Shown here in pieces: positions 6,116 through 59,691 of a stretch of 64,000 bases of DNA; the stretch's first letter is position 1, and each line of letters opens with the position of its first letter. The notes beneath the pieces are model-generated. The model was not told the origin of the DNA, did no database searches, and saw only the letters and a program-made list of their open reading frames with translations. The translations under genes were made by a program, and so were the position numbers. The stretch comes from Pagrus major (taxonomy: Eukaryota; Chordata; Actinopteri; Spariformes; Sparidae), in NCBI RefSeq assembly GCF_040436345.1, contig NC_133223.1, positions 15,211,613 through 15,275,612 on the forward strand. The letters run 5' to 3'.

Positions 6116-6462
6116 TTTTTTATGCATCATTAATCTGGAACAAACTCCCAGAAAAGTGTATTTTAAATCAGTACTCAAGGCTTCTCTGTTTGCAGCAACC
6201 TTTTATTACATTAAAGTTTGGACCATTTAATCCGATCTTACATTGCAGCTGCACTATAATATGTGATTTTACTGTTTATTCTGTCTATTTTAGCTTATGT
6301 TTTATATTTATGACACTTGTTCATTTAATATGTTTTTATCCATGTATGGGTTTCATCGTTAATGTGCTGTGTTGATTGTTTTAACATCTGTTGTGCACTA
6401 TGAGCTTCACCAAGGCAAGTTTTTAACAGTGTTTGTTGAGATGACAATAAAGGACACTCAAC
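6116..6462 (+). mobile_element. LINE 3'-end fragment, unit 1
   Basis: This stretch starts TTTTTTATGCATCATTAATC and continues through the end of a decayed reverse-transcriptase reading frame, with a WNKLP-like segment followed by an L-rich stretch as at the C-terminus of L2/CR1-type LINEs. It ends in an AT-rich tail with AATAAA at 6446. The same fragment occurs before the other two receptor copies at 9191 and 13735, which shows that it was carried within the duplicated unit. The LINE clade is my recollection of common fish repeats and was not searched. Confidence 0.6.
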
Positions 6463-6776
6463 TCAACAGGCTTCAATCAGGTCTCTGTGAGGGAATGACA
6501 TGTGGTCTTTTTTCAAGTGAGATCAATTACATTTTAGAGATTAAAGTCAAATGGACTTTTATTTTTAATTAATCCAGTGGAGGAGGAACGTGAGTGTGTG
6601 CTGCTCTGCTGTTTGCCTCAGTTATAATCTAATGCTGCCACACAAACCAGTATGAAATGAGATGTTAGAATATATACACAGTGAAGTGTCCCCGCAGTGA
6701 CAGTAAATGTAAATGTAAGGTGACAGATCTGGTTCTTGTAATAGTGTCAGAATATTTCAAATCAGAAGCTGTGGAC
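6463..6776. other. Spacer without identifiable gene, unit 1
   Basis: AT-rich sequence that is repeated, with small differences, upstream of receptor copies 2 (about 9550-9780) and 3 (about 13960-14223). No coding segment or RNA gene was recognised. Confidence 0.6.
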
Positions 6777-7057
6777 TTAAAGGGTAACTCCACCAACTGA
6801 CACATTAAAGTGTGTTTACAGGTCTTGGGGAGTACTGTCTGCTGCATATGTGGAAACGTAACATTCTTCTTCTTTTTCAAAACTGCTGCCTAATTTCCCA
6901 CAATGCAACTTAGCCACTGAATGACATCACTGGAGGCAGTTTATCAGATGACTGTACATGCAGTTTCCTGTAGAAGACTTTAAACTACTTTTTTCACATA
7001 TGCAGCAGTACTCCCCAAGACCTGTTTAATGGGTAAATTGGTGGAATTACCCTTTAA
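6777..7057. mobile_element. TIR (MITE-like) element, unit 1
   Basis: Long inverted repeat. The left end reads TTAAAGGGTAACTCCACCAA and runs through a segment containing CTTGGGGAGTACT and GCATATGTG. The right end is its reverse complement and finishes ACCCTTTAA. The arms are about 65-80 bp, the element is 281 bp, and there is no coding capacity. A near-identical copy lies at 14224-14506 and a partial one at 9782. The TTAA at both ends could be target site or element end. Confidence 0.75.
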
Positions 7058-7461
7058 TTCACTGAGCAACAAGACCTTCTCATTATGCTTCAGGTACTCG
7101 ATATGCACTTAATGCACAGAGAGCAGCACAGACACAAAAGTGTCTCCAGCATTACACAGGAGTGTTTATTTCTGCACTTGAACGAATCTATTATGTGCAT
7201 TTTATATCAGTTTAACATGAGATTACCAATTAAGTCATATTGCAGTTTATTTTAAAAGAAGAACCAAGTTTGATCTCTAGATTTTAATTTGAATGAAGTT
7301 ATTGCCTACTGGACTCACAGATGACTTGTGTTCTATGAAATGTGGAAACAGACGCTTTGAGCAGCTGAACAACACCCAAAGCCACTTCCTTTCTTCAGCA
7401 CCTCGACCACAAACATATTTAAAACTTGATGGTAAAGTTCCAGTCTGAGTGTCTCTGTCTG
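7058..7461 (+). promoter_or_regulatory. Conserved 5' flank of receptor copy 1
   Basis: Sequence between the TIR element and the first exon. It closely matches 14507-14910 before copy 3, and its last ~90 bp match the flank of copy 2. It presumably contains the core promoter and 5' UTR. No unambiguous TATA box or named factor site could be picked out. Copy 2 lacks most of this block, so its promoter region differs. Confidence 0.4.
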
Positions 7462-9074
7462 ATGGTCACCATGTTCAGCCTGAACCGAGCAGCTCTGCTT
7501 CAACTATTAGTTATGTGCCAAGTCTTTGCAGGTACAGTGGACATTTGTGTTTGTCTTGTATGATTTTTTCTATTTTTAATTATATTTAATATTGATTGAT
7601 TGATTGTTTCCTTCCCTGTTAGGTCATTGTTTCGTTGACTACAGGGATATTCTGGTGTCCAGGGGGGAATCTGTCACGTTGACTTGCAACACATCCAAGG
7701 AAAAAAGATCACACAAATCAGCTCGACCAAAGACAGATTTAGATTTGGTTATTCAATTTCACTTAATAAGACTTCGAATCTAACCTCTAACAGACTGACA
7801 AACGTACCTGCCCAGCTAAATGTTTCTAATGCTCAACATGAAGACGCAGGACTCTATATATGTATAGTATTTGTACATGTAAGTAGAGCACAAAACAGGA
7901 CTAATCATCTCTTCAGACTTAGTACATTTCAAAGCTCACACTTCATGCTACTTTAATTATTCACATCTTATTTGATGCAGGAGTCAGTTCATCGTGGGAG
8001 TTTCTATACATACTCACATATGTAATTGGACTTCTTCTCTGTGTCATCGCTCCAGCTGTCTGCATCTGCAGGTGAGTTTTTATTCAAATCTGTGTGAAAA
8101 TTGTAGCCTGATGTTGTTACACACTTAACACCTTGACTTCCTCCCTTGCCCGCTTGTCGTCATCATGTAACTGACATGTGAACTAGCTGCATTTTTAAAC
8201 ATTTCTGCATTTAGTAAACATATGTCACACTACTTAATATTGTTAATCCTCTTTCCAGTAACAGTTTACATTACAATACGGGAGCTTTAGATGATGTCAG
8301 TTAATGCAGCACAGAGATTTTTTTACAGCGGACATTTTGATTTGTCAAAGCAGGAAAACAAACGTGTAAATAACATTAATGATGCGTTCACTTCATTAAG
8401 TGTCCCAGTAAGACATGTCAGAGAGTGAACATACACAACACCAGTGCCAGTGCTGTAAATGGCTCACCTAAATGGAAAGCGGTTATCATAAATGTTAGTA
8501 TTTCCACCTGTGCTTCCTGCTTTGACGAGTCAAAATGTCTGCTGTGAGAAGGCTCTGCTGCTGCCACCATGACCAAAAACCAGAATGTTTTTATTTTCCA
8601 GTCTGCTCATTTTAATGTCTTTTTCTCATGACAAGAATCTTTTCTTATTGCAATGAAATATCTTAATAATATTCTAATTATATAAGTCAAGCAGACGCAT
8701 CTCATTAAAGACATGTTTCCGGTTCAACATGATAACCTGGTGTGTGTTAATAAGAAATCTACATGTTGTTAAATGAGGAAAAGATCCAGTCAGTGCTTTC
8801 ACATCAACGAGCTGCAGGTAGTGTTAAACAAACAGGGGGACATTGTGTTTGAATCATGTTGAACTTAGGTTAATTATTTAACAAATAAATATATTTAAGA
8901 GTGGCCACATGAGTCTGCACTCAAACAGGCTGCATCCCTGACTGTGACAGGCAGAGGGCGACAAACTCTGAGAGAGAAGAGATGAGAGCTGAATGTGATG
9001 GAAGGAGGACAGAGGGAGAGGCTCAGTTCAGTGTTTGGTCTGACTAGAATGACATTCAGATTAAAGTTGAATAA
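7462..9074 (+). pseudogene. Single-V-set receptor pseudogene (copy 1)
   Basis: The leader exon (ATG 7462 or 7471, to 7531) is intact and near-identical to copies 2 and 3. The V exon (7623-7878) is damaged. An A-run is two bases longer than in copy 2, which shifts the frame just before the core Trp. The Trp codon itself is changed from TGG to TCG. A 9-bp segment is missing, and the end of the domain (G-strand region) is deleted before the GTAAGT donor. The membrane exon (7981-8071) is intact. The cytoplasmic exons are gone: at about 9013-9022 the sequence jumps from intron 3 into the last third of the final exon, a loss of about 1.47 kb relative to copy 3. The remaining tail also has a TAG at 9045 where copy 3 has AAG. 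The original TAA is at 9072. I judge it non-functional. Confidence 0.85.
8335..8545. mobile_element. Short TIR element in intron 3 of copy 1
   Basis: 211-bp non-coding element with roughly 30-bp imperfect inverted ends. The left end contains GACATTTTGATTTGTCAAAG and the right end is its reverse complement with few mismatches. It is shared with copy 3 at 15845-16063. More decayed relatives are seen near 31540, 44110 and 57030 in the downstream units. Confidence 0.65.
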
Positions 9075-9190
9075 GAAACAAGAGAGATGCTGGACAGGAC
9101 ACATGATATATGATGACGTATAGAAATAATATCAATGCAGCCTGGAGAATGATGACCTTGTTAAAACTAAACGTGGAGAAACAGCAGTGA

Positions 9191-9510: not shown

Positions 9511-9781
9511 CTTTTTTCAAGTGAGATAAATGACATTTTAGAGATTAAAGTCAAATGGACTTTTATTTTTAATTAATCCAGTGGAGGAGGAACGTGAGTG
9601 TGTGCTGCTCTGCTGTTTGCCTCAGTTATAATCTAATGCTGCCACACAAACCAGTATGAAATAAGATGGTTAGAATATATACACAGTGAAGTGTCCCCGC
9701 AGTGACAGTAAATGTAAATGTAAGGTGACAGATTTGGTTCTTGTAATAGTGTCAGAATATTTCAAATCATTAACTGTGGAC

Positions 9782-9900: not shown

Positions 9901-10012
9901 TGATAGATGCTGAACAACTAAAGCCACTTCCTTTCTTCAGAGCCTCGACCACAAACACATTTAAAACTTGATGGTAAAGTTCCAGTCTGAGTGTCTCTGT
10001 CTGATGGTCACC

Positions 10013-13000
10013 ATGTTCAGCCTGAACCGAGCAGCTCTGCTTCAACTATTAGTTATGTGCCAAGTCTTTGCAGGTACAGTGGACATTTGTGTTTGTCTTG
10101 TATGCTTTTTTCTATTTTCAATTATATTTAATATTGATTGATTGATTGATTGTTTCCTTCCCTGTTAGGTCATCGTGTCATTGACCACAGGGATATTCTG
10201 GTGTCCAGAGGAGAATCTGTCACGTTGACTTGCAACACATCTGAGGAAAAGATCACACAAATCAAATGGACCAAAGACAGATTTATTTATATTTATTCAA
10301 GTTCACTTAATAAGACTTTTTCGAATCTAACCTCTAACAGACTGACAATAGACCTAAACTTACCTGCTCAGCTGAATGTTTCTAATGCTCAACATGAAGA
10401 CGCAGGACTCTATATATGTGAAGTAGTAAGTGGTGACCATGGCACATGGACAACAGAGTGGAATTTGACAGTGTCTGAGGCACCTGAAAGTAAGTAGAGC
10501 ACAAAACAGGACTAATCATCTCTTCAGACTTAGTACATTTCAAAGCTCACACTTCATGCTACTTTAATTATTCACACCTGATTTGATGCAGGAGTCAGTT
10601 CATCATGGGATTTTCTATACATACTCACATCTGCAATTGGACTTCTCTGTGTCATCTCTGCAGCCATCTGCCTCTGCAGGTGAGTAATGCTTTAACACCT
10701 TTTAGGTGGTGACATTGTTTTATCAATTGAAAAATAATGTTTAGGGAATTGAGCAGGGACACATTTTCCAGAACGACGTCCCTGAAACTCTGCATGACCA
10801 ACAGATCTGTCAGCTTGAACTGTCAACAGTTTTCCGGGACTGTCTCGTCAGCCATCTTTTCTCTCTCTTCTCTTCAGCTCTCTTGTAGCTGTATTCAAAA
10901 CACAACTAGTGAAAAGACGATCTGCTGTGTAATATGTTAACTGTTCTTCCAAACAAAGTTTTATTTATCTGTATTTTGTTATGCAGAAATCTTAAAATGC
11001 ATAATTTGGGTGAATCAGTTGTTTGGCTCTATTTTTGCAGCAGAACAAAAACTAGTGCAACTACAGGTATTTGAATGTCCTTGGCCTTCACCATTAGTCT
11101 AAGTCTTTTTGTGCATAGTGCAAAGTCAGGAGGAAATGCACAAAGGGAAGTGTTCATAAATGAGGTCAGTGCCATAGCCACATATTCTTACACATACTTT
11201 TTGACCCACAAACTACAACCCAGGCAACATAGTGAATGCTTTACCTCATCAAACACGTTTCAAACAAGTTGGTACAGGGGCAACAAAAGACTGGGAAAAC
11301 TGTGGAATGCTCCAAAAACATTGCAAATGATTGCCTTCTGTATGCATTTAGGTTTTACATCGCAATTTGTACATAAAATATTGGTATGATTGAACAAAAG
11401 AAAAGAAAAGAAAACAAGTCATGACTAGGACTGAGTCTCGACCTGGTTGCTTCAAATCTTATACTACACTGGTTACATATGTATACTTTGATGTTGCTAC
11501 AGTGTAGCTAGAGTACACACAGAGAATGTATGGATGTTTGGATTTAAATGAAAAGTCATGCAAACAGAATTTCTATAAAGAACTGAATGTTAATGCAATG
11601 GGCTGAACTTAAATGTGAAATATGTAAGACTTTTTAAAATGAATATATTATAAAAAAAAAACCTAAAATTATCAACAGAATATAAAGAAACAACAGTGTT
11701 GACATTATGATGTCTATGTATTCTGCTGTAGAGATATCTACTGAAGCTAGCATGCTAACCAGCTAGGCCTAGCCTTTACCATTTAAGAGCCCATGTGCTA
11801 GTGGTGTAAATGATCCAGTCTCTCAGTTTGGACTGCTAGATGCACAGCTACCTGAGTTAACTAGCTAATGGTCACTACAGTCAGTAGCTGTTGAGTGTGA
11901 TGTCACAAAGTCATAGAATTAAAGGCGGGACTGCTGACGAGGTGTTTGAGGAGCAGTGTTTTCTGTAGGAGAGAGGAGCTTCTGTTGGTGTGGACTTTGG
12001 GCTTTTTAAATTTCAAGATCTTTTACATGTACAACAACCTATATAACACACTGTAGCTAATAAATGATAAATAAATAATATAAATAATGGAATAAATGAA
12101 AAAGCATAATAGGTCTCCTTTAAAAGCAGCTCTGGTAATTGTTACACTAACATGATTTGGTGCAGGGATCCTTTCTGTAATGGCTCTATAAGATTACAGC
12201 AGATCTGAGGAAAAGCCTTATTGTCATAATATAGCATAACAAAATGTTAAATGCAACCCCATTACTTATAAAATGCAGTCACTGCACATAATAATACTGA
12301 ATGGTTTGCTTAATTTGCATTGCAGTTGTTTTTTGTGCACAATTATATTTCGGAGTATGATTCACAGTTACACCTGCAACAGTGGCCTGTTTGTATTTTG
12401 TACAATCTCATAATCTCACACTATATTATTGCATTATTCTATAAGTTCTGTTACTTGAGACACTTTAATTTCAACATTTGGTTGATAAGACTTTTACATT
12501 AGTGGTTTTAATGCAGGGCTTTTACTTGCAATTTTACGTGTGACAGGAAAACTTGCCCAGCCTCTCAGTGCACCTCTGCAAACACAACAGAAAGCAAAAC
12601 TAAATACCAAACACAAAAATCCACAGCAGAATTTTGAGATTGTGACACTTTTACTTGCAATGAGGTATTTTAATATTGTGGTATTGGTACTTGTATTTAA
12701 ACATACTGTACCTGAAGGCACGTTTAAATGGTGATGAAACAGTCTCAGTTTAATGCTGATGCTTCTATATAACATCAATAGGCAAACAAGACCTTCAGCG
12801 AGACTGGCTTATTCTGTATAATTATTATTTTAATAGAGTTGTGTAGTCTGTTGTCCTAAAACCTTACTCTTACTGAACAAAATGTGTAAATATCATAAAC
12901 TTGTTCGTGCCACAGAGCTTTTTTTCTCCAATGATCAAAAATCCAATTCTAAAGTCCTAAAGGCTTTTTGTCTAGAGAACCGGGGCGATGCTAACTTTTG

Positions 13001-14506: not shown

Positions 14507-14919
14507 TTCACTGAGCAACAAGACCTTCTCATTATGCTTCAGGTACTCAATATGCACTTAATGCACAGAGAGCAGCACAGACACAAAAGTGTCTCCAGCA
14601 TTACACAGGAGTGTTTATTTCTGCACTTGAACAAATCTATTATGTGCATTTTATATCAGTTTAACATGAGATTACTAATTAAGTCATATTGCAGTTTATT
14701 TTAAAAGAAGAACCAAGTTTGATCTCAAGATTTTAATTTGAGTGAAGTTATTGCCTACTGGACTCACAGGTGACTTGTGTTCTGTGAAATGTGGAAACAG
14801 ACGCTTTGAGCAGCTGAACAACACCTAAAGCCACTTCCTTTCTTCAGAGCCTCGACCACAAACACATTTAAAACTTGATGGTAAAGTTCCAGTCTGAGTG
14901 TCTCTGTCTGATGGTCACC

Positions 14920-17900
14920 ATGTTCAGCCTGAACCGAGCAGCTCTGCTTCAACTATTAGTTATGTGCCAAGTCTTTGCAGGTACAGTGGACATTTGTGTT
15001 TGTCTTGTATGCTTTTTTCTATTTTTAATTATATTTAATATTGATTGATTGATTGATTGATTGTTTCCTTCCCTGTTAGGTCATTTCATTGAACACAAAG
15101 ATATTCTGGTGTCCAGGGGAGAATCTGTCATGTTGACTTGCAACACATCCGAGGAAAAGATCATACAAATCAACTGGACCAAAGACAGATTTAGATTTGC
15201 TCATTTAATCTCAACGAATGAGACTTTTTCCAATTTCAGCTCTCACAGAGTGACAATAGACCTAAACTTACCTGCTCAGCTGAATGTTTCTAATGCTCAA
15301 CATGAAGACGCAGGACTCTATATATGTGAAGTAGTAAGTGGTGACCATGGCACATGGACAACAGAGTGGAATTTGACAGTGTCTGAGGCACCTGAAAGTA
15401 AGTAGAGCACAAAACAGGACTAATCATCTCTTCAGACTTAGTACATTTCAAAGCTCACACTTCATGCTACTTTAATTATTCACACCTGATTTGATGCAGG
15501 AGTCAGTTCATCATGGGATTTTCTATACATACTCACATCTGTAATTGGACTTCTTCTCTGTGTCATCGCTCCAGCTGTCTGCCTCTGCAGGTGAGTTTTT
15601 ATTTAAATCTGTGTGAAAATTGTAGCCTGATGTCGTTACACACTTAACATCTTGACTTCCTCCCTTCCCCACTTGCCGTCATCATGTAACTGACATGTGA
15701 ACTAGCTGCATTTTTAAACATTTCTGCATTTGCCAAACATATGTCACACTACTTAATATTGTTAATCCTCTTTCCAGTAACAGTTTACATTACAATACGG
15801 GAGCTTTAGATGATGTCAGTTAATGCAGCACAGAGATTTTTTTACAGCGGACATTTTGATTTGTCAAAGCAGGAAAACAAACATGTAAATAACATTAATG
15901 ATGCGTTCACTTCATTAAGTGTCCCAGTAAGACATGTCAGAGAGTGAACATACACAACACCAGTGCCAGTGCTGTAAATGGCTCACCTAAATGGAAAGCA
16001 GTTATCATAAATGTTAGTATTTCCACCTGTGCTTCCTGCTTTGACAAGTCAAAATGTCTGCTGTGAGAAGGCTCTGCTGCTGCCACCATGACCAAAAACC
16101 AGAATGTTTTTATTTTCCAGTCTGCTTATTTTCATGTCTTTTTCTCATGACAAGAATCTTTTCTTACTGCAATGAAATGTCTTAATAATGTTCTTATTAA
16201 TTCAAGCAGACGCATCTCATTAAAGACATGTTTCCGGTTCAACATGATAACCTGGTGTGTGTTAATAAGAAATCTACATGATGTTAAATGAGGAAAAGAT
16301 CCAGTCAGTGCCTTCACATCAACGAGCTGCAGGTAGTGTTAAACAAACAGGGGACATCGTGTTTGAATCATGTTAAACTTGGGTTAATTATTTAACAAAT
16401 AAATATATTTAAGAGTGGCCACATGAGTCTGCACTCAAACAGGCTGCATCCCTGACTGTGACAGGCAGAGGGCGACAAACTCTGAGAGAGAAGAGATGAG
16501 AGCTGAATGTGATGGAAGGAGGACAGAGGGAGAGAGATGAGAGACTCAGAGAGAGGAACAGAAACAGGAGGTCAAGAATGAAGCTGCACCAGTAGTACCA
16601 GTATTTTTTAAAATTTCTTTTATTTGAGTACCCCCACCCAACACCCTCCCAAGCACTGATGGCAAGTAACTGAGTAAATGTACTCCAGTACTGTACCTAA
16701 GTACAGGTACCTGTACTTTACTTCAGTATTTCCATCAAATACTACTTTATACTTCTGCTCTACTACATTTTACAGAGAAATATAGAAATATTGTACTTTT
16801 AACTCTACTGCAGTCATTTGACAGATTTAGTAATTTCACATTTCAGATCTAAATATATAAAACAAAGTGCAATATTCCCTTTTGCTTGTGGCTCCTTAGA
16901 AAAAGAGCGTGTCTATAGTCCAATAACTAAAAACAGATTCCCGTATCAGAATTTAGTTTTTTCTTTCCGACCACAGTAAACATCTCACGACCTACTCAAA
17001 TTTCTTTTGTGGGCCTTCGGAGGGGCCTGACCTCTAGGTTGGAAAACCACTGGACAAAGCAACATAACTGTGTTAAAATAACCTGAATTAGCTCCTCTTC
17101 AACCAGCTACAACAGTAAAATGCTACATGTACACTGATGCATCAGTGTGAATGAGCTTAGAGCTGAAATGTTGAGGTGATTATTCAATTAGTCGATCACC
17201 AGAAATCAATAATCGATGAATCATTTAGGTCATTTTAAGCCAAAACGCCGAACATAGGTTAGTTCAAACTTCTGAATTGTGAGGATTTTCTGCTTTTTCA
17301 TGTCTTATGTGACAAATGTTTTATGTGAAACAAGGGTGTCACTATGTGTTGAAAAGTGGTGGGGACATAAGGGCTCCGATGAAAAAACAACTTTTTATAA
17401 GTCCTCTTCAGCATAATGTGATTTAAGATAATGTAATGAAGAGATCGTATGAGGTCAGAGTACATAATTACAGCAGGAAAAAAGTGCATAATGGCATCAA
17501 ATGTATTTCATGTCATCTGTTAGTGAATATTTTTTAGTGCAAGCTTTTTCTTTATCACATTTTTAACCCAACTCAAGGTTGGTCATTTCAAAAAAGGGTG
17601 GGGACGTCTTCCAAGTATCCCCAACAGTCTGAAACAACATGAAAGTCCAGTGGATTTTCATTATTTACAATTTTATCTCTGCAGAAAACTCTGGAAAGAG
17701 ACACCAAACCAGGACTCAGTGAGGAGCAGGACCCTGAGTTATGTCCAGTTTCATGTCCAGTTGGGAGGACAGGTCAGAAGAACTTCAAGTCATTACTCAA
17801 ACTATTATGTTCTCATGTCTCACAAAGCATTTTTTTTTAGCAGTCTCTCTTATTTTCTTTCTTTTCTTTTCTTTCTTAGTTATGAGTTTATTCTCATCCC

Positions 17901-18056
17901 CTCTCCCCACAGGTGTCCACACAGGTGTCCCCACAGGTGGCTCCTCCTCAGTACCAGAGTTGTGTAGTATACAGGATGAATCACCAGCAGAGGGAAGAAG
18001 AGGCTCAGTTCAGTGTTTGGTCTGACAAGAATGACATTCAGATTAAAGTTGAATAA
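14920..18056 (+). CDS. Single-V-set Ig receptor with a divergent tyrosine tail (copy 3)
   Basis: Complete model of 233 residues. Exons 14920-14980, 15080-15397, 15500-15590, 17685-17772 and 17913-18056 total 702 nt, with the same phases as copy 2. The leader is identical. The V domain (22-123) has C41, C103 and core Trp in IIQINW, and differs from copy 2 mainly in the middle strands. The membrane span covers about 134-156. The tail differs from copy 2: LSYVQF at 174-179 is an ITIM-like motif with Phe at +3, where the consensus wants I/V/L, and Y206 sits in VVYRMN. There is no canonical ITIM, so signalling output may differ from copy 2. In-frame ATG at 14911 is an alternative start. The last acceptor is part of a 12-nt repeat, so three in-frame acceptors exist (exon starts 17913, 17925, 17937). 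The family call is as for copy 2. Confidence 0.78.
15845..16063. mobile_element. Short TIR element in intron 3 of copy 3
   Basis: Same element as at 8335, with inverted ends around GACATTTTGATTTGTCAAAG and its complement. It is absent from copy 2. Confidence 0.65.
16650..16830. mobile_element. Interspersed AAGTAC-rich teleost repeat
   Basis: Contains TACTGTACCTAAGTACAGGT and TACTTTACTTCAGTATTTCC, then TCTACTACATTTTACAG. I recognise this repeat type as very common in fish introns. Related stretches occur near 25930, 32880-32940 and 33690-33780 and at matching places in the later units. Confidence 0.45.
16831..17684. other. Intron 3 of copy 3, 3' part
   Basis: AT-rich intron with no coding segment or structured element recognised. 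It ends in an ordinary acceptor (TTTTATCTCTGCAG) ahead of the first cytoplasmic exon. Confidence 0.5.
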
Positions 18057-21936: not shown

Positions 21937-24900
21937 ATGTCTGCGTCTTCGTGCGTTTTCTACGACAAGTTATGGACAACGTGTTTCTCCAGGAGCAATA
22001 CGATGTTTATACTGGTGTCCGCGATGATCCTGAGCACAGTTACAGAAGGTTTGTGAGCTTTTTTTAAAAAAAAAACTACAAGGAAAGCAGATTGGCCGTT
22101 TCATGGTAAGCTAGCAAAGCCGAGGATGCTGAAGTAGTAAGTGTATAAGGAGTATAAATAAGGAGGAGTGTGTAAGAGAGGTAGCTAACATACACCACAC
22201 AAAGTGGTTAACTTTTTTTTTTTTTTGGGGGGGGGGGGGGGGGAGTGACTGCACCCTGTAAGTCCTTATTGCAAGGAGTGATATTGACCAAATTCACTGT
22301 ACATGCGCCTGGTTTCCTCTACTATTAATGCTGAAAAGACAGAGAATGTAACCCCTCCCAATCCAGAGTTACAGGGTGCAGTCACTTTTTGGCAGGGCCT
22401 GCCGAAAAGTGACTGCACCCTGTAACTCTGGATTGCAAGGAGTGATATTGACCAAATTCACTGTACATGCGCCTGGTTTCCTCTACTATTAATGCTGAAA
22501 AGACAGAGAATGTAACCCCTCCCAATCCAGAGTTACAGGGTGCAGTCACTTTTTGGCAGGGCCTGCCGAAAAGTGACTGCACCCTGTAACTCTGGATTGC
22601 AAGGAGTGATATTGACCAAATTCACTGTACATGCGCCTGGTTTCCTCTACTATTAATGCTGAAAAGACAGAGAATGTAACCCCTCCCAATCCAGAGTTAC
22701 AGGGTGCAGTCACTTTTTGGCAGGGCCTGCCCAAAAGTGACTGCACAGTGACACAGTGATATTGACCAAATTTACTGTACATGCACCTGGCAAACACAGA
22801 GAATGTTATGCAGAATGTAAAGGCAATCCGTTACAGTTAGCCTACAGTTCTATATATACTGCATTATTGTATTCATAATTATACTCTTAAAAGTACAAGT
22901 TAATCAAAAAGTTACTTAAGTAAATGTAATGAAGTAAATGTAAATCGTTATTACCCACCTCTGATAGCACTTACTAATTTCTCAGTATGTGTTATATGAT
23001 TGCTATCTAATGTGACGTGGAAACACTCCTGCATTCTTTTCTGCATTGATTTCCTAATCCTCGTTATAAAATCACTGAAACAGGGATATTGAATTATGAC
23101 TTTATTTATAGATCAAAGCGGTGTAAAATCACATTGCAACAACGATAACAACAACAACAACAATAAAAGTGGCAAGGTAAAGCATCTACCCTCATCAATT
23201 GTTGACAACTAGCCTACATTATGGAAACATCAGGTTACTTTTTTTATCTGCGCCGTTCTTTTTCCGTAGCCTCTTCACTTGGGCTACAGGACTGCACAGT
23301 AAAAAAAACATTTCTCTCGGTGCTGCGTCTGCCAGCTGACCCGTAGTAGACCTACGCCCACTTCCTCTGAACTGATGCGCGTTCCCTTCGAGGGCGGTCG
23401 TTTTTCGGCAAGCAGTCTCTTCTCGGCACTACACCGGGCGGTACCTACCATCCAAAAACAAAAATAATCGGAACACAGAACTTTAATGTGTGATTGTGTA
23501 CAGGTGTTCACGAGATACCAACCTTTCATGAACTCGTGAGTTTCGCCAGCCGTCTTCTTCAGACTACACCTGAGACGCCTAAAGTAACTCAGTTCATTTT
23601 TTAAAAGCCCACACCAGCAATTCTAGACTGTTTTCTTCGTGTGGACGGAGCACTGATACTGAGACAAGAAGATGTGTCTTTTCTACATGGAGGATGCCAG
23701 CTTACATCTCGCTAGATACCACATGTGTTTTTACTTGTTTCTGTGCCTTCTGACTTGAGATCTGAATCCTGATGAGATTTTACACCCCTCACAGCTCTCC
23801 AGGTGATTGGAGGAAACAAGACGGTGATCCAAGGAGGAACCGTTGTCTTACCGTGCAAACTCATTGACACCAGGGAAACCCTCAGTCAGATTTCATGGCA
23901 GAGGATGACCCGAGGGAAACCTCGGAATGAATTGTTCTTCACCATCTTACCTAAAGATGGACCAAAGTTTGTCAATGGAGGTGATGAGCGATTTACATTT
24001 ATTGGGAGCATTGATGACAGCAATGGATCTCTCCAGTTATTCAACGTCACGCTGATGGATGAAGGCACCTACACGTGCATCTTCACCCTGTTTCCCAGCG
24101 GTAACCACAAGACAGAAATACCTGTAAAAGTGCTCGGTATGATGCTCTGTTTATAAAAATATTTTCTTTGTTTATTTATTATTTGATTATTCATATTTAT
24201 ACATTTCTTGTGTACTGTGACTGTCGTAGTGCCTCCAATCTCAAGCCTGGAAGCTCATCCTCCTGTTTTGGGTGATAAGGAGGTTTCACTCGTTACCTGC
24301 ACAGCTGCTGGTTCCAGGCCTCCTGCAGAGGTGAGGTGGCAAACTGGTGATCTGGCAGATAAACTGAGGGCAACATCCAACTACAACCAGCAAGACAATG
24401 GTACAACTACCACAGTCTGCTCGCTGTTTGGAATACCGAGCAGAGAAATCAACAATCAGTTGGTCCAGTGTGTCGTCAACAATGCAGCCCTGGAGAGAGA
24501 ACAAACTCTGCCCTTCACCTTACAGGTCTACTGTGAGTATACAAATACTTCCATTCATCACTTACTTCTGCAGAAGAATCAGGGAGACTCTTTAACTCAG
24601 ATCTATATAATAATGACTTTCTGTCCTTCAGATGTTGGTGTGGACTGAGACTGGGTTCCAACAACAAGGATAAATGTTCAAACCAAGTGAAATCATGGTT
24701 TAATTTTAAATTATGTTGCACAAAACTGTAAAACTAGTGTGATTAAACCTTTCTATAACCTCAGTTTAGTTTTTACTCTTAAAGTAGAATAAATGTAATT
24801 CTGTTGCACCGAAACCTTAAACTCCAATTTAAAACTGTGATCCAGTAGTAACTTAAACTTACACTTGAGGAAATGTAACTTTTAAAATAGATTGAGCAAA

Positions 24901-28579: not shown

Positions 28580-28862
28580 TACAGAACTAATAATTTAAAT
28601 TCATTAAACTTTGGCACAACTCTCTACAACATATTTCTGGCCTAATGTTGTGACTCTTTAATCAAGCTTATGGAACAAACGCAGTCACCTCTATCTGCAT
28701 GTTCCTTCAGGTGAGGTCAGGTTTGACTTGGCTTTGGGTTTTTGTCAAATGTGTTGGTGTTTTTGTTTTTTTTTTGCATTTGCTGCTGTTCTGTGGCTTT
28801 CAGTCGGCTATACCATTTACACGCCACTAGAGGTCATTCATATTACAATTTATGATCTTGAG
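28580..28862 (+). pseudogene. Truncated duplicate of the fifth exon, gene A
   Basis: The sequence upstream of exon 5 (ACTAATAATTTAAATTCATT...) reappears here, then jumps inside the exon to its last ~50 bp (TTATGGAACAAACGCAG...CTTCAG) and keeps the GTGAGG donor. The acceptor and first two thirds are deleted, so it cannot be spliced as an exon 5 substitute. It is the left part of a tandem duplication of exons 5 and 6. The same relic is in units B and C. Confidence 0.7.
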
Positions 28863-28965
28863 GCTGCACTGTTTGTTGGACCTTATGTAGTCTTTTGCTT
28901 ATCTTGAATGCTGCTGCTGCTGCTGTGTGGTACCTTTGTAAAAGCAGGAAATGGTACAAGACAAG
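28863..28965 (+). CDS. Second membrane exon (possible alternative), gene A
   Basis: Duplicate of exon 6. Taken from the AG at 28861-28862 it starts in phase 1, stays open and ends in phase 2 at ACAAG|GTAACA, exactly as exon 6 does. It encodes GCTVCWTLCSLLLILN then an Ala run, WYLCKSRK and a basic end, a good membrane span. The acceptor is weak: the pyrimidine tract of exon 6 is missing. It may be an alternative exon or a silent relic. The open frame in all three units is not strong evidence, because the units are recent copies. Confidence 0.35.
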
Positions 28966-33845: not shown

Positions 33846-33850
33846 CAGTC

Positions 33851-47468: not shown

Positions 47469-50400
47469 ATGGAGTCTGTTTCTTTGTGCGTTTTCTACGA
47501 CAAGTTATGGACAACGTGTTTCTCCAGAAGCAATACGATGTTTATGCTGGTGTCCGCGATGATCCTGAGCACAGTTACAGAAGGTTTGTGAGCTGAATGT
47601 GTCTTTATTTAATACACTTAAACTTAAAGTTTATTTTATTTATATAGTTCCTTTCATACATATGAAATGCAACACAAAGTGCTTGCACACACAGCCGCAA
47701 ACATACACTCATTAAGATATGGTATGGCTGGGCACTGAGGATCCAGGTGAGGAAAGCATCGTTGGGGAGCCATCCACGCCGGGAAGTCATGTAGATACCA
47801 GGACCAGGACAGACAGAGGAGCCCACACCACGGCCGTGGAGATGGCCGTGGTGCAGTGCCACCCCAACCCTCCAGGCCAGGACAGCCCCCAGGGCAGCAC
47901 CCCCACAGGTGGATCAAACTACTCCCAACGTGGAGGGCCCCCCGTGAGGAAACCACTGGAGCTAGAAGATAAAAAGAAAACAGGATAAAATCAACATTAA
48001 AATAAGTTAAAAGTAGTTAGGAATAATAAGAAAGAGACTAAAAGAAAAAAGCTAAGAATACCATTCTTAAAGCTGTATCCTAAAAGGTCCTTAAAAAAAA
48101 AAAAAAATACAGAGACATGGGAGGCTATTCTGCACATTTTCCAGAGTGTATACGGGAGTTAGCTCACATACAACAAGCTCTATGTCGTCATATCTTGTCA
48201 GACGCACAAAAAGGTGGTTCACTTTATCTTTTATGTAAGAATAACGTTAACTGAATTACCACCTGTCCCAGGTAACAAGAGAGGAAGCTCAGGAGTCACA
48301 ATGCCAAAAGTAATTTAAGCCAATGAACTGATTAAAAGCTGAAGATAAGAAGCAGCAGAGTACAGGGTATGTGTTTAATATGTGGGGAGAATTATTGAGT
48401 GTTCATTTACCCAAACAAAAGTCCACTGTCCAAGTCCAAGCAATGCATGTTCCTTACAAATGTGGCACCATTTAAAAGGGAAATAAGCGGCTTTCCAACG
48501 GTATGAGATTTATTGCCAAGAAGCATTGTTACAACAAAGAAATAATCTATCAAACACAAATTTCCTTAGTACATTCAAAGAAACTGTTTGTTAAGCTCCT
48601 ACACTTCTACACTATGCTTCTAAACTTTAGGTTTGTGACTTTAAAGACAACATGGTCTGTTGAGGGATGGTCTTGTTTTGCATTGTTGGACAAGTTGAGT
48701 CAGGTTCAACTGCCACTCCTGCAGTTGCAGCTCAGTGGTCCCATTAAGATGAATCAGGAATGACTGAAATGGCAATATTTAGACTATGCCTAAGACGCCT
48801 AAACTAACTCAGTTCATTTTTTAAACGCCCACACCAGCAATTCTAGACTGTTTTCTTCGTGTGGACGGAGCACTGATACTGAGACAAAAAGATGTGTCTT
48901 TTCTACATGGAGGATGCCAGCTTACATCTTCCTAGATAGCATGTATTTCCATACTTGTTTCTGTGCCTTCTGACTTGAGATCTGAATCCTGATGAGATTT
49001 TACACCCCTCACAGCTCTGCAGGTGATTGGAGGAAACAAGATGGTAGCCCAAGGAGGGACCGTTGTCTTACCGTGCAAACTCATTGACACCAGGGAAACC
49101 CTCAGTCAGATTTCATGGCAGAGGATGACCCGAGGGAAACCTCGGAATGAAAATTTCTTCACCATCTTACCTAAAGATGGACCAAAGTTTGTCAATGGAG
49201 GTGATGAGCGATTTAAATTTATTGGGAGCATTGATGACAGCAATGGATCTCTCCAGTTATTCAACGTCACGCTGATGAATGAAGGCACCTACACGTGCAT
49301 CTTCACCCTGTTTCCCAGCGGTAACCACGAGACACAAATACCTCTAAACGTGCTCGGTATGATGCTCTGTTTATAAAAATATTTTCTTTGTTTATTTATT
49401 ATTTGATTATTCATATTTATAAATTTTTTGTGTACTGTGACTGTCGTAGTGCCTCCAGTCTCAAGCCTGGAAGCTCATCCTCCTGTTTTGGGTGATAAGG
49501 AGGTTTCACTCGTTACCTGCACAGCTGCTGGTTCCAGGCCTCCTGCAGAGGTGAGGTGGCAAACTGGTGATCTGGCAGATAAACTGAGGGCAACATCCAA
49601 CTACAACCAGCAAGACAATGGTACAACTACCACAGTCTGCTCGCTGTTTGGAATACCAAGCAGAGAAATCAACAATCAGTTGGTCCAGTGTGTCGTCAAC
49701 AATGCAGCCCTGGAGAGAGAACAAACTCTGCCCTTCACCTTACAGGTCTACTGTGAGTATACAAATACTTCCATTCATCACTTACTTCTGCAGAAGAATC
49801 AGGGAGACTCTTTAACTCAGATCTATATAATAATGACTTTCTGTCCTTCAGATGTTGGTGTGGACTGAGACTGGGTTCCAACAACAAGGATAAATGTTCA
49901 AACCAAGTGAAATCATGGTTTGATTTTAAATTATGTTGCACAAAACTGTAAAACTAGTGTGATTAAACCTTTCTATAACCTCAGTTTAGTTTTTGCTCTA
50001 AAAGTAGAATAAATGTAATTCTTTTGCACCGAAACCTTAAACTCCAATTTTAAACTGTGATCCAGTAGTAACTTAAACTTACACTTGAGGAAATGTAACT
50101 TTTTAAATGGATTGAGCAAAGTAATCAACTTTGTTGATGGAGTTATGGAACTGAACATGAAGAATGAACTGACTGTCAACAGGGCAGTGAGGAGATGCAG
50201 CTGTACCACAAATATTCTCAACTCCTTGTGGCCCTGAAATGTTATGCCACTGGATGTTTTCAGAGGATAGGAACCTGTTTGGCCTACACAGCTCCTCTTT
50301 TTGCAGCATAGATTTGCATGTCAATTACAACAGGGCTACCTGTTTGAAGATGCGTCTTTAATTAATGACGTGCTTATCTTGAGTCGTAAATGTTTAAAAG

Positions 50401-53400
50401 CAGCAGGCTGATCTAGGATGTACTGGTGGATTAAAGAATGACTGTAAATGCTCTGCTCACTGCCATATTATATTGTGAAGCCCTGCATTTAATTTCCTAT
50501 ACATTCTTAAACAATAAAAGTCCCTCATTTCTTTTTTCATGTAAAAACCTTTTCATAATGAAGCAACAAAATCAGGAGATGTTGGTTTTTCACCAGCAGT
50601 AACTTAACCACAACTCCTGAAAAAGCTGTATGTAGTGTTTTGTTATATACATACATATATATAAGGAATACAAACTACAGTCTACAAAGATCAAGTTTTT
50701 TGTCCTCCTTTTCACCCACTAGGTCCTGACAGTATGCAGATTTATTTCTGTATTTATTTTAATCTAGGTAGCATCTCCATGTTTGTATGTGTGAGCGCCC
50801 TTACCAGCATGCGAACGGCGCGCCACCACAGCACAACACTAAGCAGTCATTGCTGTGGTGGGAAGACATGTAGCTGGGCTGTAGGATGGGGTTCCTGAGC
50901 TAGTATTTTCTCACTTACAGCAATAACCCAGCCCATTCTCTCTGCCTGTTTCTTGCAGTCCCCCCCACTGAAGTGTACATTCATGAACGAGCTTCTGGCT
51001 CGTTTGAATGTGTGACTGAAGCCAATCCAGATGCAAAGTTTACCTGGAGCAGGTAAACTAGTTTGAATTAACTGGTTTCAGTGGAATTTTTTTATAAAAC
51101 AATATTATGTTTAACGTCAACGTCATTGTCACAACCTCTGTACAGTGGTGGGACTAGACCCAAAGTATGATTAGAAAAATGTACTTAAGTAACAAAAGTA
51201 AAAGTAAATGAATGGGATCAATGTCCCCTGCAATTGTTACATCGATAGCTTAGATTATTAAATTATTACTGGTGTATTAATGTGTAAATGGCATTTGATT
51301 GTTGTAATGGGTCGAAGTGGAGCTGATGATGGAGGTCATCAACTATACTGTATGTAAAAGTATTTGAGCAACTGTACTCAATCACTGCTAAAGCATAATC
51401 ATATAAAGGTATACACTCTGGAGGGAAAAAAAGAAGCAATGTTTAGACCCATATAGAAGTAATCCCTCTTAAGTATTACGTATGAGCCACTAGAAATGTG
51501 TGGCGGTGTCTGTATCTGCTATGACTCTACCGTCTGCCTGTACGGCCTTATTTTATTGATATTTTGCTGTGTTCAGGACCTTTCTGGGCATAGGTATCTG
51601 ACATCTCACTGTAGGAACGAAATTAGAAAATCAACTATCTTTCTCCAGAATCGCCCTCTGCACCTGGTGTGTTTACAAACCGCAATCACCAAATCCCACA
51701 TATCACGCCTTTAACATGAACTGAATAGGCTTAGGTAACTGACTGAACTAAAAGAAAACTGCCTAATAAACTGAACACAAAGGGGTGTATACAGCATCTA
51801 ATACACAAACGCTATCAATCAAACTACAAATAAAGCAAAAACAGAACAATTAGTGTACCAGTATACATATTTTAAACGTACTACAAGGAGTTTTTAACTG
51901 TTTTTGAAACTCAGTGCCTGTTTTTATTGGCTATTTCTGTTTAGTTGTTATATTTAGTCTTAATGCCTGTCACCAGGTCAGATTACGACCTCTCCAGGTC
52001 AGAAACATAATAAAATAAATCCATTAGTCTGGTGGTACGGCACTGAAACAAAGTTTATTATGTTTCACCATCTTCATCATTTGTCCAAAAAATGAAAGTT
52101 CCTTGTAGCAGCATTAACAAAGAACACAAACAATAGCTGCAAAAATTGATATAGCTTAAAGAAATAAACAAATTCTCTATAATAGAAATTCAAGTTTGAC
52201 CGATACTTGATTTTTGGGACTAATGCCAATACCGATATTAGGAAGTAAAAGATTTCGATATTGATATATCGCCAAATATATACGCCTTTCTGTAAAGATC
52301 CCTCAGATGTTGTGACAAAATATGTAATGGAGGCGGATATTTTACAGTCTAACACTAAACTTTACCTGGAGAAGGTCTAAGTCAGAAAAGGCAGCAAACC
52401 TATCCGTTAAGGACATAAATAAAAAACTAATAATTTAAATTCATTAAACTTTGGCACAACTCTCTACAGTTCACAACATATTTCTGGCCTAATGTTGTGA
52501 CTCTTTAATCAAGCTGAACATTTCAGTGCTTGGCCTTGTTCGTTTGTTTTAGGTTTAACAACTCATGTCCTCAGTCTGCCGTCAGAGTAGAAGGTGCAAC
52601 ATTACAGTTTCTAAGCATGACCTCTGACCTGAATGGACTCTACCAGTGTGAAGCTTCGAACCCTTATGGAACAAAACGCGGTTACCTCTATCTGCATGTA
52701 TCTTCAGGTGAGGACAGGTTTGATGTTGTGTTTTTTTATTTTTTTTCCCTCTGTTTTTAGATTTCAGTGTGTTGTGATTGTTTGAATTTGTTATTCTTTT
52801 ATATCTCTTAATTTAAAAAAAAAAATGATGTTTTCTGTTACAAGTTTTACTCATGGACATCTAGGCCTGGCATAAACATGCTGAATGTGGTCAGGATTTC
52901 TCTCGGATGCCTCCCTTTTGAGATATTCCAGCTATGTCCAACTGAAAGTCGACCCAGGACACACTAGAGAATTCCTTAAGCTGAGAGGCATGCTGCTTAG
53001 CCTTTTCCCATCACAACGACAACTGTAAGAAAAACTGCCCACACTGTGACTAGATGACTACAGTGTACAGTCATCTAGTCACAGCTGTCACTTAGTTGCA
53101 CAGTGAAACTCTACAAGGCTGGACATGCACTCATTGATCAGGAAATCACTGATAACAGAGTTTCTCTTAAACCAGTCAGGAACACACAGCTGAGCAAAGG
53201 AGAAGGATATGCTGTAATGGAGACATATTGTCCTCATTTTCAGGTTCATCATTTTATGTTGGGTTACCACTAGAATCGATTTACAAGCTTTAATGTTCAA
53301 AAAGTACATTTGCATACATTTTCTTATTCTGTCCAGTGCTGCTGCGCTGTATTCCCCCTCTGTCTGAAACGCTCTGTTTTAGCTCCCGTCTCTTTAGGGC

Positions 53401-54158
53401 CCCTCCTCCTGAATACCCAGTCTCCTCTGATTGGTCAGTTCATACATGCCTGTGCCAGTAACGCCAACAACAGAGCCACTTTAATAAAATGATTCTTACG
53501 TAACAAACTAGTTGCTCGGCATTTAAGTATGCAAATGTGTGACATGATGACGTAGTGTGATGTCACTAAGACACATAATTAAAGGCAGGACTACTGACGA
53601 GGCGTTTCAGGAGCAGTGTTTTCTGTGGGAGAGAGGAGCTTCTGTTCTGTACAAGCACAAGAACCTATGTAACACACTGAAGGAAAGGGGGAAAAGCATA
53701 GTACTGTACGTCTCCTTTAAAGTACGATTAACTGCAGTGCTGTTGTATTGGGCGATATCAAACTTGTGAGTGTACCTCAAACAATGACTGTGTATATCAA
53801 TTTCCTATTAATATCTCTTCTTTCTTGTGTCTTGTCTCTCTACAGGAGGCTGCGCTGCTTGTTGGACCTTATTTAGTCTTTTGCTTATCCTGAATGTTGC
53901 TGCTGCTGCACTCTGGTACCTTTATAAATCTGGAAATTTGCAAAGGTAACAGGTACAGTAGTACTATATGCACATAAATGGAAAATTACAGTGCTGCTGG
54001 GAAGTATGTAAGAACATGTTGTATGCACTGTGTTAAACATTTGTTGCATATTAATTGTTGGTTCATTGTCCAGGACTAGGGAGTTGATATCTGGGGATAT
54101 GGAGCCGGTCCAACGAAGTCCCAGCGTATCTGACAGTACTGACTCACGTGGATTATGA
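47469..54158 (+). CDS. Nectin/PVR-like three-Ig membrane protein (gene C)
   Basis: 397 residues. Exons 47469-47583, 49015-49356, 49450-49752, 50959-51052, 52553-52707, 53846-53945 and 54074-54158 total 1194 nt. Plan as in gene A. Private differences are KMVAQGG near the V-domain start, ERFKFIG for ERFTFIG, LMNEGTYTC for LMDEGTYTC, and NNSCPQ for NNPWPQ at the start of exon 5. The Asp-to-Asn change hits the conserved D of the V-set DxGxYxC motif, normally paired with an Arg; the new Cys in Ig3 is unpaired on this model. The V-domain end matches gene B, but the SNYNQQ/LFG segment of Ig2 matches gene A. The frame is intact throughout. Confidence 0.8.
47607..48106 (+). mobile_element. Poly(A)-ended insertion in intron 1 of gene C
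   Basis: Where units B and D have about 85 bp of ordinary intron, unit C has about 500 bp. It includes TTTATTTATATAGTTCCTTT and CACAAAGTGCTTGCACACAC, a GC-rich middle and an A-rich end finishing in a run of about 15 A. The first phrase is typical of a very common teleost retroposed repeat. The 89-residue open frame at 47719-47988 is low-complexity and shows no domain. Confidence 0.6.
50796..50862. repeat. Truncated hairpin element in intron 3 of gene C
   Basis: Same hairpin as at 37694, with the same 35-bp right-arm deletion as unit A. Confidence 0.65.
51422..51716. mobile_element. Interspersed repeat in intron 4 of gene C
   Basis: Copy of the repeat at 26220, carried within the unit duplication. 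Confidence 0.4.
53044..53084. other. Perfect 16-bp-arm hairpin, intron 5 of gene C
   Basis: Identical to the hairpin at 39979 in gene B. Confidence 0.65.
53330..53715. mobile_element. Interspersed repeat in intron 5 of gene C
   Basis: Copy of the repeat at 27700. Confidence 0.55.
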
Positions 54159-55731: not shown

Positions 55732-58700
55732 ATCCCCAAATGAACATTGCCTAAGTGAATGAGATGAAGCTACATATCATCTCAAAACACAGTGAAAAGT
55801 AAATAATGTAATAATGAGATAACAAAACTTGAAGACATGATGAAATTTAAGTTATGAAGAGTTACAAGAAGGTTTTTAAAGGATCATATTAATAATTTAA
55901 AATCCATTTAATATTGTCTCAGAAAGTTCAAGGGCTCAAATCAAATCCTGAATCAGAAGAAGTATTAATGCTGGAACAATTACTATACAAAAACCCAAAG
56001 CTAATCTGGAAAGAAAGAAAAGAAACTGGGTCCTAAGTAGTTCAAGGAAAATCCAGTGGAAGTTTTATTAGTGACGGGGACGTTGTGAGTTGCATCAGTG
56101 AAGTAAAAAGGGTGTCGTAACAGCTACATTGAAGAGCTCATCCAGAACAGAAGGTATTCCAAAAAAGCTTTAAGGGGAACCCATTATTCTAATTTGTAGC
56201 TCTATATTTTTTGTCTGTGACTCCACTACAGTAGCTTTGCATGATTTACAAATCAATTTGCAGGATTTTAATCAAATTAAAAGTGTATTATTTATCTTAT
56301 ACTGGCCCTTTATTCAGCCCCCGAGTTCATTCGGTGTCTGAAACGGTTCCTCAGAGGAGCTGAATAACTTTTTAACTTTACTATTCCAATTGTGGTGTTA
56401 TTAAATATTAAATAAATACCATTTTAAATATTTTAAAATGGTATTTTGAAATTATACAGTGACACATTGTTGGTGGATCAAGAGAAAAATGAGCCTATAT
56501 TGATCAAATTTTTGCACTTTCATATGTTTTGTTGACGTTATGGAGTAAAACACAGAGGATTAATGTATTTTAATGTTAAACATAGAAAACAAAAATATAA
56601 ATATTATATTTAAGAGATTATATTAAAAATTCAAGAGATACTGTGAAATGGAATGAAACCTTTGCACTATATGTAGAGGATGTGTGATATGTATCTGTTT
56701 GTTGTTCAAGTATAATCTTCCCCTCATGCATTACGAGGTGTACTGTATGGTAACAGCTTGCCAAAGAATGTGTGCCATTGACCACTGGTGTTGCTATCCA
56801 GAAAGAAGCCTTTTGGGATTGTGCTGGTTGACATGTTGATTGTAATTGGCTGTATTTTAACCATTTTGTGTAACTTGTGAGGAAAAGTATAGCACTTAGC
56901 CACTGCACTGTTCGTCTAAGTTGCTTCTTTATTTCTGGATTTCCTGTTTGTAAATAAAAACTCTGCACTTCACTTCAGTCCTGGCGTTTATAAATTACGT
57001 TAAGTTATTTTACAAGTTATTTTATGAGACCCTTTTCACAACAGACATTTTAACTTGTCAAACGGGAAAAGCAAAGGTGTAAATAATATTAATGATGGAT
57101 ATTCTGTCAGTATGAAGGCATGTCAGTGAGTGAGCAATGCACAATACCAGAGCCCTGGAACTGGCTCACATAACTAGTATGCAGCCATTATTGATGTTAC
57201 TTTACGTCCTTTTCCTCTAATAACAAGTAAAATGTTAGAGAAGGGTCTTTTGACAAAAAAATATTTACTCTGTTTCTACTTTCCAATTTTCTCATCTATG
57301 TTGTTATAAGATATTTTCTTATTGTTCTGTTTTGACAAGAAACTTGTTATAACAACATGTCGCTTAACTTTGTTCAGTGACAATACTTTCATGTGAAAAT
57401 CAATGAATCTCATTTCATAACCCGATGAATGTGTATGTTTTAATAAGAAATCCACACGTTGAAATGAGCGAAATATCCAATCAGTGCCTTGATCAAAGAG
57501 CTGCAGGTGTAGGGTGAAATAAAGTTCAAATGCTCAGACACTAAATCTGTCTTTGTCTCTTATTGCAAGGGATTATTTATTGTATGCACTTGAGAATGAA
57601 GAGAAGTTGGTTACATTGCAGCTTGTACTTGAATATCACAAGCATGTACAAGTTTATCAGCAAGGTCAGACCATGCTGTGACAAAAGTTTTGAGATTTTC
57701 GTGTCAAGTGTTGCTGAACTTTCCTCCCCCACTGCTCTCCCTCCCCACCTCCTTCCTTCCTGCCTTCCTTTCTTCCTCTGCCTTTCAATTCTGGTGAACT
57801 GTAATTAAAAATACTGTACTTTTTTTTTTTTACTTCACTACAGCTAGTTAAAAGCAATCTAAAAGAGTCACTATTCAAATGTAATCTTTAAATTGAATCA
57901 ATTTTATGGTGGAAAGAATGCTGACCAAAGTACTGCACTTAAGTACAATATTGAGGTAATTTTACTTTACTTGAGCCAGAATTCAGAAGTTATGCTGTTA
58001 TATATTTTTTTTAAGAAATCATGTAAAATGTGTTAGTATGTCACTACAAGCTGTAACTTGCACATTTCCTGAACTCAATGAAAAAAAAACAGGCCCAAAA
58101 GGTATCACACAAAGATGGAAAACCTTGAAGTCAAACAGTACAAACACTTACCTATGAAATAAATCAGTGAATGTAATATTACAGTCAGCGGAAAGTCTTC
58201 AATTTACAAAGCAATATTAAATCATGATGTGATGAGTGATTTAACAGCTTTATTTTTTTGTTTTATATGTCGGCATATATGAACATTTTCACAAAAAAAA
58301 GTTCCAAGGAAATGAAATGAATCAATCTACAGTCATAATTTATTAAACAGTTGGATTTTCAGGTCTATAGCACTTTTTTTCATGCTACTTCATAATTCTG
58401 CTCCAGAGGCAATTATTGTACTTTTTACTCCATTACATTCATCTGACTGCTACAGTATAGTTACTAGTTACCTTGAGGATCAAGATTATACCCATGAAAC
58501 ATCAACTTAATTAAAAGTAGTTCAGATTTTTTCTCAGTCCCTCCCAACCGTCCTGTGAAACTTTTCATTAACCTGGTCATTTGATGGGTAATGTTTAATC
58601 ATGTAGAATTAAAGGAAAACGAGGAAAGGGCTTTTGATACACAACTGCAACGACTTGTTCAATACTTTTTGGGAATGGAAGCAGTAACAAAAGCCAAGGT

Positions 58701-58791
58701 CAAACATGTGAGGTGGCAGGCCATTCAGTTTCCCTTTAAATAAACTGTCCTTCAAGAACACAGATTTCTTTGTATGAGGTTTTTTTCATGA
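55732..58791. other. 3' flank and spacer, unit C
   Basis: No gene supported. Same AT-rich spacer as in A and B with the private deletions listed for unit C. Confidence 0.5.
56953..56958 (+). terminator. Polyadenylation signal, gene C
   Basis: AATAAA at the position equivalent to 44036 in unit B. Confidence 0.5.
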
Positions 58792-59576
58792 TCTCAACAA
58801 TAAATAGCTGTTCTGTAGCCGGGCGTGAACTTCATGTGCACAGTCATTCATTAACTCTGATGGCTTTTGACATTGCTTATTAACTAGACAACAATTAGAA
58901 AAGGCTCTGCTGATGTTATTAGTCACTGTCATGTGGACCTGCAGGATGCTTTTACAAAATACCACTGACCAGAGTTTGGATTTGTCTGTCGGCCCCACAC
59001 ATCAGTATCACAGAGGAGAATGGGTTCAATAACTGAAATGAGCATTTTGAGCCAAATTAGAATTGGAAACTTTTGATTACAGAAAATACCCAGCATGCTA
59101 TTCCTCTGTGTTTATTGATGCTGTGTTGAAACTTCCAGTGAAGATTATTTTCAGGCCTGAATAGCAAAACAAACACATTTCTTGCTCCAAATGTAAATCA
59201 CAAATTGTTTCCCGTGTATCTTTCCTTTACATCAATGTTTAACTCTTTAGTGTTTCTTGCTCTGGTCCAGTTTGGACAATAACATTCAAGTATGTATAAA
59301 CTTTATTAACAGGATTAAATAATATGTCTGCCTAAACCAGCATAACCCAGGAACAGAGACTTTTGGAAAGAAAGGCTACATCCTGTTACAACTAAGCTGT
59401 ACTCACTGATATCAGCCTGACTAGCTCTCCTCTCCCTGATCCTCCTTTTCCTACATTTTCCTCTGTTCTGGCAGCGTTTGGAAAGTCCCACCCATTTTAC
59501 TCTCCCGTGAACGCAGAGCGATGACGTGCCGTATAGCCTCGTTCTGGGTGCACACTAACACAAGTGTTCTGGATGG

Positions 59577-59691
59577 ATGGAGTCTGTTTCTTTGTGCGTT
59601 TTCTACGACAAGTTATGGACAACGTGTTTCTCCAGGAGCAGTACGATGTTTATGCTGGTGTCCGCGATGATCCTGAGCACAGTTACAGAAG
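59577..59691 (+). pseudogene. Leader exon of a fourth ligand gene (D), partial
   Basis: Intact leader exon with ATGGAGTCT start and the GAAG|GTTTGTG donor, equal in length (115 nt) to genes B and C. Intron 1 follows unit C to about 60120, where similarity stops. No V, C2 or membrane exon is found in the remaining sequence, which contains a microsatellite and a retrotransposon. Either the gene is truncated, or its other exons lie beyond 64000 after a large insertion. The coding status of D cannot be decided here. Confidence 0.7.

Follow-up and report, generated by a model that had tools for sequence, protein, structure and literature searches.

The stretch of Pagrus major DNA analyzed here (the window; 64,000 nucleotides, C9:15211613-15275612) carries two tandem arrays of immunoglobulin superfamily (IgSF) genes, one of single-V receptors and one of nectin-family proteins with a V-C2-C2 ectodomain, termed ligands below. 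The best explanation appears to be a recent tandem expansion of these two different gene kinds side by side. We put the probability of this reading, in which nectin-family ligands and single-V receptors restricted to this locus both diversify their V exons, at roughly 60%. An earlier note on this DNA had described a co-amplified receptor-ligand set; what we found instead is that receptors and ligands are each duplicated in an array of their own and not as receptor-ligand pairs. The analysis also covered 200 kb of flanks (a 264-kb stretch), and searches of the species' own genome extended over 785.9 Mb in 25 contigs. A literature search gave no description of a fish TIGIT/CD226-nectin gene cluster among the matches listed.

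The nectin-family ligand array

Three intact V-C2-C2 genes stand in tandem on one strand, followed by the leader exon of a fourth, as the earlier note had proposed. Splicing by hand yielded open frames over seven exons each, without inner stops and with GT-AG introns, encoding 374, 375 and 375 amino acids. The exon order is leader, V, first C2, second C2 (two exons), transmembrane (TM) segment and short tail, and the rule of AG before and GT after an exon held at 20 of the 20 modelled exon ends needing such a signal. Gene 1 (22003..28527, plus strand) consists of exons 22003-22048, 23795-24136, 24230-24532, 25739-25832, 27192-27346, 28218-28314 and 28443-28527. Gene 2 (35315..41095, plus strand) comprises exons 35315-35360, 35913-36254, 36348-36650, 37892-37985, 39457-39611, 40783-40882 and 41011-41095, and gene 3 (47538..54158, plus strand) exons 47538-47583, 49015-49356, 49450-49752, 50959-51052, 52553-52707, 53846-53945 and 54074-54158. 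Identity between the units is 95.8-97.9% over aligned columns. In every unit a relic second TM exon stands 3′ of the tail exon (28862..28945, plus strand, 75% alike, behind gene 1; at 41430 and 54493 behind genes 2 and 3). The leader exon of the fourth gene lies at 59646..59691 on the plus strand, and its second C2, TM and tail exons are located beyond the window; its V and first C2 exons were not seen. The DNA beyond the window is partly N.

The proposed nectin/PVR-like nature of these genes was borne out by structure database search, tree and V-C2-C2 architecture. Pfam assigned V-set and C2-set_2 domains. When the ectodomain of ligand 1 was compared with the PDB, nectin-1 was the best match (E 2.2e-32), PVR followed at E 2e-29, nectin-3 and nectin-2 were also among the best, and the top 16 rows, out of 27 with E up to 1e-10, are all nectins or PVR. 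The ligand V domain alone matched an engineered antibody domain first and then rows of nectin-2, nectin-1 and PVR, with TIGIT accounting for nine rows in the best 60 of 162. The tree that included fish controls grouped the ligands with PVR and nectin-2 (support 93/92, not starred). Besides the three copies in the window, an own-genome search with the ligand V domain picked up a single 30% match, on contig C2; its translation (ISQVTW, AIANPALG, TTFP) reads as nectin-1.

The ligand tail is 28 residues long and ends in DSRGL in all three genes; a nectin-type PDZ-binding C-terminus, judged by the familiar letters of that motif, is absent from them, as it is from PVR. Such a C-terminus is listed as a feature of nectins in PMC7286890. 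The ligands would thus be single-pass surface proteins of the nectin family that work like PVR and not like a junctional nectin. Their anatomy, a single pass and a short tail without this PDZ ending, suggests display to other cells, and surface expression with a role independent of a PDZ partner is most likely.

Two repeat features lie within this array. Intron 1 of ligand gene 1 contains three near-identical 164-bp tandem copies (22244-22746), and frames of the long terminal repeat (LTR) retrotransposon type with RNase H and integrase domains occupy 61086-63359 on the minus strand, between the fourth leader and the later exons of that gene.

The single-V receptor array

Single-V units occupy roughly 7.4-9.1, 9.9-10.7 and 14.8-18.1 kb, all on one strand. 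The two to three receptor genes announced earlier are therefore present as three same-strand units, of which A is a pseudogene and B has no tail exon that we could find. Unit A (7462..9071, plus strand) retains a leader (7462-7530), V remnants in two frames (7622-7705 and 7702-7869), a TM exon (7983-8069) and a tail remnant with a stop (9003-9071, plus strand); its V exon is split over the two frames, the core Trp is lost and the V end is unmatched. Unit B (10004..10679, plus strand) comprises leader 10004-10073, V 10169-10489 and TM 10592-10679. Only unit C (14911..18056, plus strand) gave a complete model, with 236 amino acids in five exons: leader 14911-14980, V 15080-15397, TM 15500-15590 and the tail exons 17685-17772 and 17913-18056. 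Two further copies reside upstream of the window, R1 with leader, V and TM exons and R2 with both tail exons in addition. R2 repeats the two tail exons of C, but the intervening intron is similar to nearly the same degree, so that the exon border is supported and not proved by this recurrence. The own-genome search with the receptor V domain found five loci, all of them at this locus. A large minisatellite with units of about 33 bp (window 1-5576) is situated directly 5′ of the array.

A perfect immunoreceptor tyrosine-based inhibitory motif (ITIM), previously ascribed to one receptor, does not occur in the modelled exons. Over 6116-23500, the three forward frames match the ITIM consensus 41 times, no more often than expected by chance (40.7, standard deviation 6.2, in 50 block shuffles). 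Among the modelled exons of C only LSYVQF is ITIM-like; it departs from the consensus at the last place, and the C tail has further tyrosines. SNYYVL at 17797 falls in the modelled intron and would be coding if the donor at 17773 were unused; a TIGIT tail, for comparison, combines an ITIM with an ITT-like motif. An NCBIfam search of receptor C produced one chance match and nothing informative. With one V domain, a TM segment and a tyrosine-bearing tail, these proteins most likely act as signalling receptors, and LSYVQF might serve as a weak or altered ITIM.

A gene that we call D lies outside the window beyond the ligands (C9:15302592-15301192, minus strand). It encodes one V domain (LTQLTW) and a TM segment, and DIYENC occurs in its tail; no leader exon was found. 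In a pairwise panel of 28, the V domain of D scored best with receptor B (z 11.1, next 6.2), and its intron phases are the same as those of C. An own-genome search with D returned itself and R1 only (E 0.004). A motif of the DIYENC type arose in 2 of 2000 shuffles, the motif having been picked after it was seen. By these comparisons D is a diverged relative of the window receptors. As far as the searches reach, the receptor V family appears unique to this locus and related to D.

Divergence between copies and linkage of the arrays

Receptor V exons differ by 7.9-16.0% between copies and receptor introns by 0.6-6.5%. The V exon was the more divergent in six of six pairs, with p < 0.05 (uncorrected) in four. 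Between ligand units 1.2-1.5% of nearby non-coding sites differ; the V exon exceeded the non-coding DNA in all three pairs (p < 0.05 in one), and the first C2 exon did so in two of three (p < 0.05 in one). Within V, B and C differ only in the first part; the remainder of the exon and intron 2 show no difference. Over codons 38-62, just two changes separate R1 from C. This mosaic of shared and differing V parts points to gene conversion. The V exons of the receptors, and less clearly those of the ligands, could be kept diverse as recognition surfaces by selection or by gene conversion. That the two arrays recognize each other has about one chance in three, and a linked receptor-ligand pair is plausible. 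The more specific proposal of a private recognition locus, where receptors lacking TIGIT's lock-and-key face co-evolved with private, physically linked PVR-like ligands and both families diversify their V exons, seems doubtful.

A serious competitor, to which we give somewhat less than even odds, is chance linkage of unrelated IgSF families without functional tie in a repeat-rich, duplication-prone stretch. It would agree with the separateness of the arrays, with a receptor V domain not placed in the nectin/TIGIT family and with the abundance of repeat DNA in the window. Moreover, the stretch joins flanks with human counterparts in different places. FSTL1 lies in the left flank (Pfam EF-hand_FSTL1) and the connexin-50 and connexin-40 genes in the right one, and we take FSTL1 and GJA8/GJA5 to reside on different human chromosomes. 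The labels GPR156, LRRC58, ACP6 and BCL9 come from reading open frames in the flanks by eye; in those frames Pfam detected leucine-rich repeats and a below-cut-off start of a histidine phosphatase, and nothing matched in the GPR156 and BCL9 frames. Chance linkage accounts less readily for the fact that both V families were by search absent elsewhere in the genome, that both arrays are tandemly duplicated and that in both the V exons tend to outpace the adjoining sequence in divergence. The earlier note went too far in placing the mammalian receptor and ligand genes apart. Human TIGIT maps to 3q13.31 and NECTIN3 to 3q13.13 according to published sources, so that a loose receptor-ligand linkage is present in humans too; the linkage in the window is tighter, not unheard of.

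Relation of the receptors to TIGIT, CD226 and other known systems

Three V-domain submotifs, (V/I)(S/T)Q, AX6G and T(F/Y)P, mark the TIGIT/PVR set according to PMC10790541, and the lock and key of this set is also covered in PMC5966540. In a panel of 26 human V domains (8 of the family, 18 others), the first submotif was present in 5 of 8 and 0 of 18 and a loosened third submotif in 8 of 8 and 0 of 18, respectively; AX6G occurred in 8 of 8, and 3 of the 18 others match it by pattern alone. Receptor B displayed the first submotif only and C none, while R1, R2 and D have by reading the first only (ISQ in R2, LTQ in D). AX6G and T(F/Y)P are absent from B, C, R1, R2 and D. The ligands carry the first and the loosened third submotif, as LSQ before the core Trp and LFP after the second Cys, without the Ala of AX6G. 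Of the residues that the earlier note had listed for both sides, LSQ and LFP in the ligands and ITQ in B are thus in place, and C has IIQ.

The receptors had been regarded as TIGIT/CD226-like. They might belong to the TIGIT/CD226/CD96 set as diverged members, bind the PVR-like proteins encoded next to them and form with these a compact, self-contained recognition locus, which we consider rather unlikely. The ITQ-type motif in B, R1, R2 and D fits this idea, as does the arrangement of one V domain, TM segment and tyrosine tail known from TIGIT. LSYVQF can be set beside LSYRSL of TIGIT, and DIYENC in D beside D/EIYV/MNY of CD226, both as given in published sources. Furthermore, among seven fish V domains taken from the human CD226 search, the CD226-like domain on contig C19 was the best partner of B, C and R2 (z 10.1, 11.3 and 8.5). 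On the other side stands the lack of AX6G and T(F/Y)P in all these receptors. Human TIGIT V, searched against the 264-kb stretch at E up to 0.1, found the ligands and not the receptors, and human CD226 V found B and C only at 0.02 and 0.036. In pairwise scores CD4, nectin-1 and SIRPA were nearest to B, ahead of CD226, nectin-3 and TIGIT. Against the PDB, neither B (best 60 of 2272, E up to 1) nor a B+C profile (best 60 of 259, E up to 0.01) retrieved TIGIT, CD226, CD96, PVR or a nectin. The receptor and ligand V domains, when modelled with AlphaFold, reached a mean pLDDT (predicted local distance difference test) of 36.0 and 43.1, too low for the models to be usable.

A far better CD226 candidate lies elsewhere. 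The best own-genome match of human CD226 V is C19:15617268-15617552 (E 4e-16, 39% identity), and none of the 19 places at E up to 0.05 is on C9. The C19 domain keeps AVFHPEYG and QTFP, lacks the first submotif and likely represents the CD226 V domain of the species. Its score is 28.8 with human CD226 and 2.4 with D, which is not the best score of D. Since this much better CD226 V domain exists on C19, the window receptors were rejected as the CD226 orthologue. Eight V places within about 47 kb on the minus strand of C24 (21692173-21739235) also matched human CD226 weakly; one V read from there groups with human CD200 at 98/97.

The trees give the receptors no firm place. In a 30-row tree human CD200R1 fell inside the ligand pair, which was taken as a long-branch error, and a 21-row tree was calculated without nine human rows (CD47, BTLA, CD8A, CD83, CD200R1, NKp30, PVRIG, CD28, CTLA4). 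The last two trees contained 15 and 14 of the 26 human rows, the final one with six of the seven fish V domains as controls. There, human and fish CD226 paired (94/85), as did the nectin-3 (100/98, starred) and nectin-1 (88/92) sequences. The receptors and D (86/37) stood outside the branch of TIGIT, CD226, CD96, nectins and CD200 (87/85), and CD4 joined them at 62/66; the 30-row and 21-row trees gave similar answers on the receptors. The tree check suggested in the earlier note therefore places them outside the nectin/TIGIT branch in this tree and fixes no other IgSF group. Grouping them with CADM1/CRTAM was not rejected in the approximately unbiased test (p-AU 0.471). Membership in the TIGIT/CD226/CD96 set is neither demonstrated nor excluded by these comparisons, and only CD226 orthology appears unlikely.

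Several results weigh against an expansion of locus-specific receptors with diversifying V exons. Placing the receptors with TIGIT, with CD226 or with TIGIT/CD226/CD96 was not rejected (p-AU 0.375, 0.317 and 0.327), and one smaller tree put them with TIGIT/CD226/CD96 at 69/75. Of the five receptor loci only C has an intact full tail, that of R2 containing a near-end stop. The rate of nonsynonymous change (dN) in the receptor V domain is close to the synonymous rate (dS), and with a ratio of about 0.5-1.2 positive selection is not shown; gene conversion alone may have produced the mosaic pattern. A copy number partly due to assembly, with haplotypes or repeats laid in tandem, would suit the high identity of the ligand units and is very improbable, as these differ in length, large indels, leader-to-V distance and non-coding sites, and ligand genes 2 and 3 differ at 20 coding sites.

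Binding between the neighbours would make the locus a compact natural example of receptor and ligand genes that are linked and diversify together, and it would reveal how ligands of the nectin family acquire immune partners. Without binding, the locus still documents short-tailed PVR-like relatives of nectins expanding in tandem in a fish, whereas PVR is regarded as restricted to placental mammals in PMC7286890.

Compared with CD226, the receptors have one Ig domain instead of two and no lock and key. They share with it a (V/I/L)TQ-type motif in B and R1 and, as ISQ or LTQ, in R2 and D; the CD226-like tail motif is seen in D and not in C. With TIGIT they have in common one V domain, a TM segment and a tyrosine tail with an LSY motif (in C). 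In contrast to TIGIT, they are devoid of AX6G and T(F/Y)P, (V/I)(S/T)Q is found in B and not in C, and LSYVQF ends with Phe and not with Leu. The ligands differ from PVR and the nectins in their 28-residue tail without nectin-type PDZ ending, the missing AX6G Ala and the tandem array; the PVR tail has an ITIM according to PMC7286890, and none was noted in the ligand tail. With PVR and nectin-1, -2 and -3 they share the V-C2-C2 ectodomain, the split exon of the second C2 domain and the LSQ and LFP motifs.

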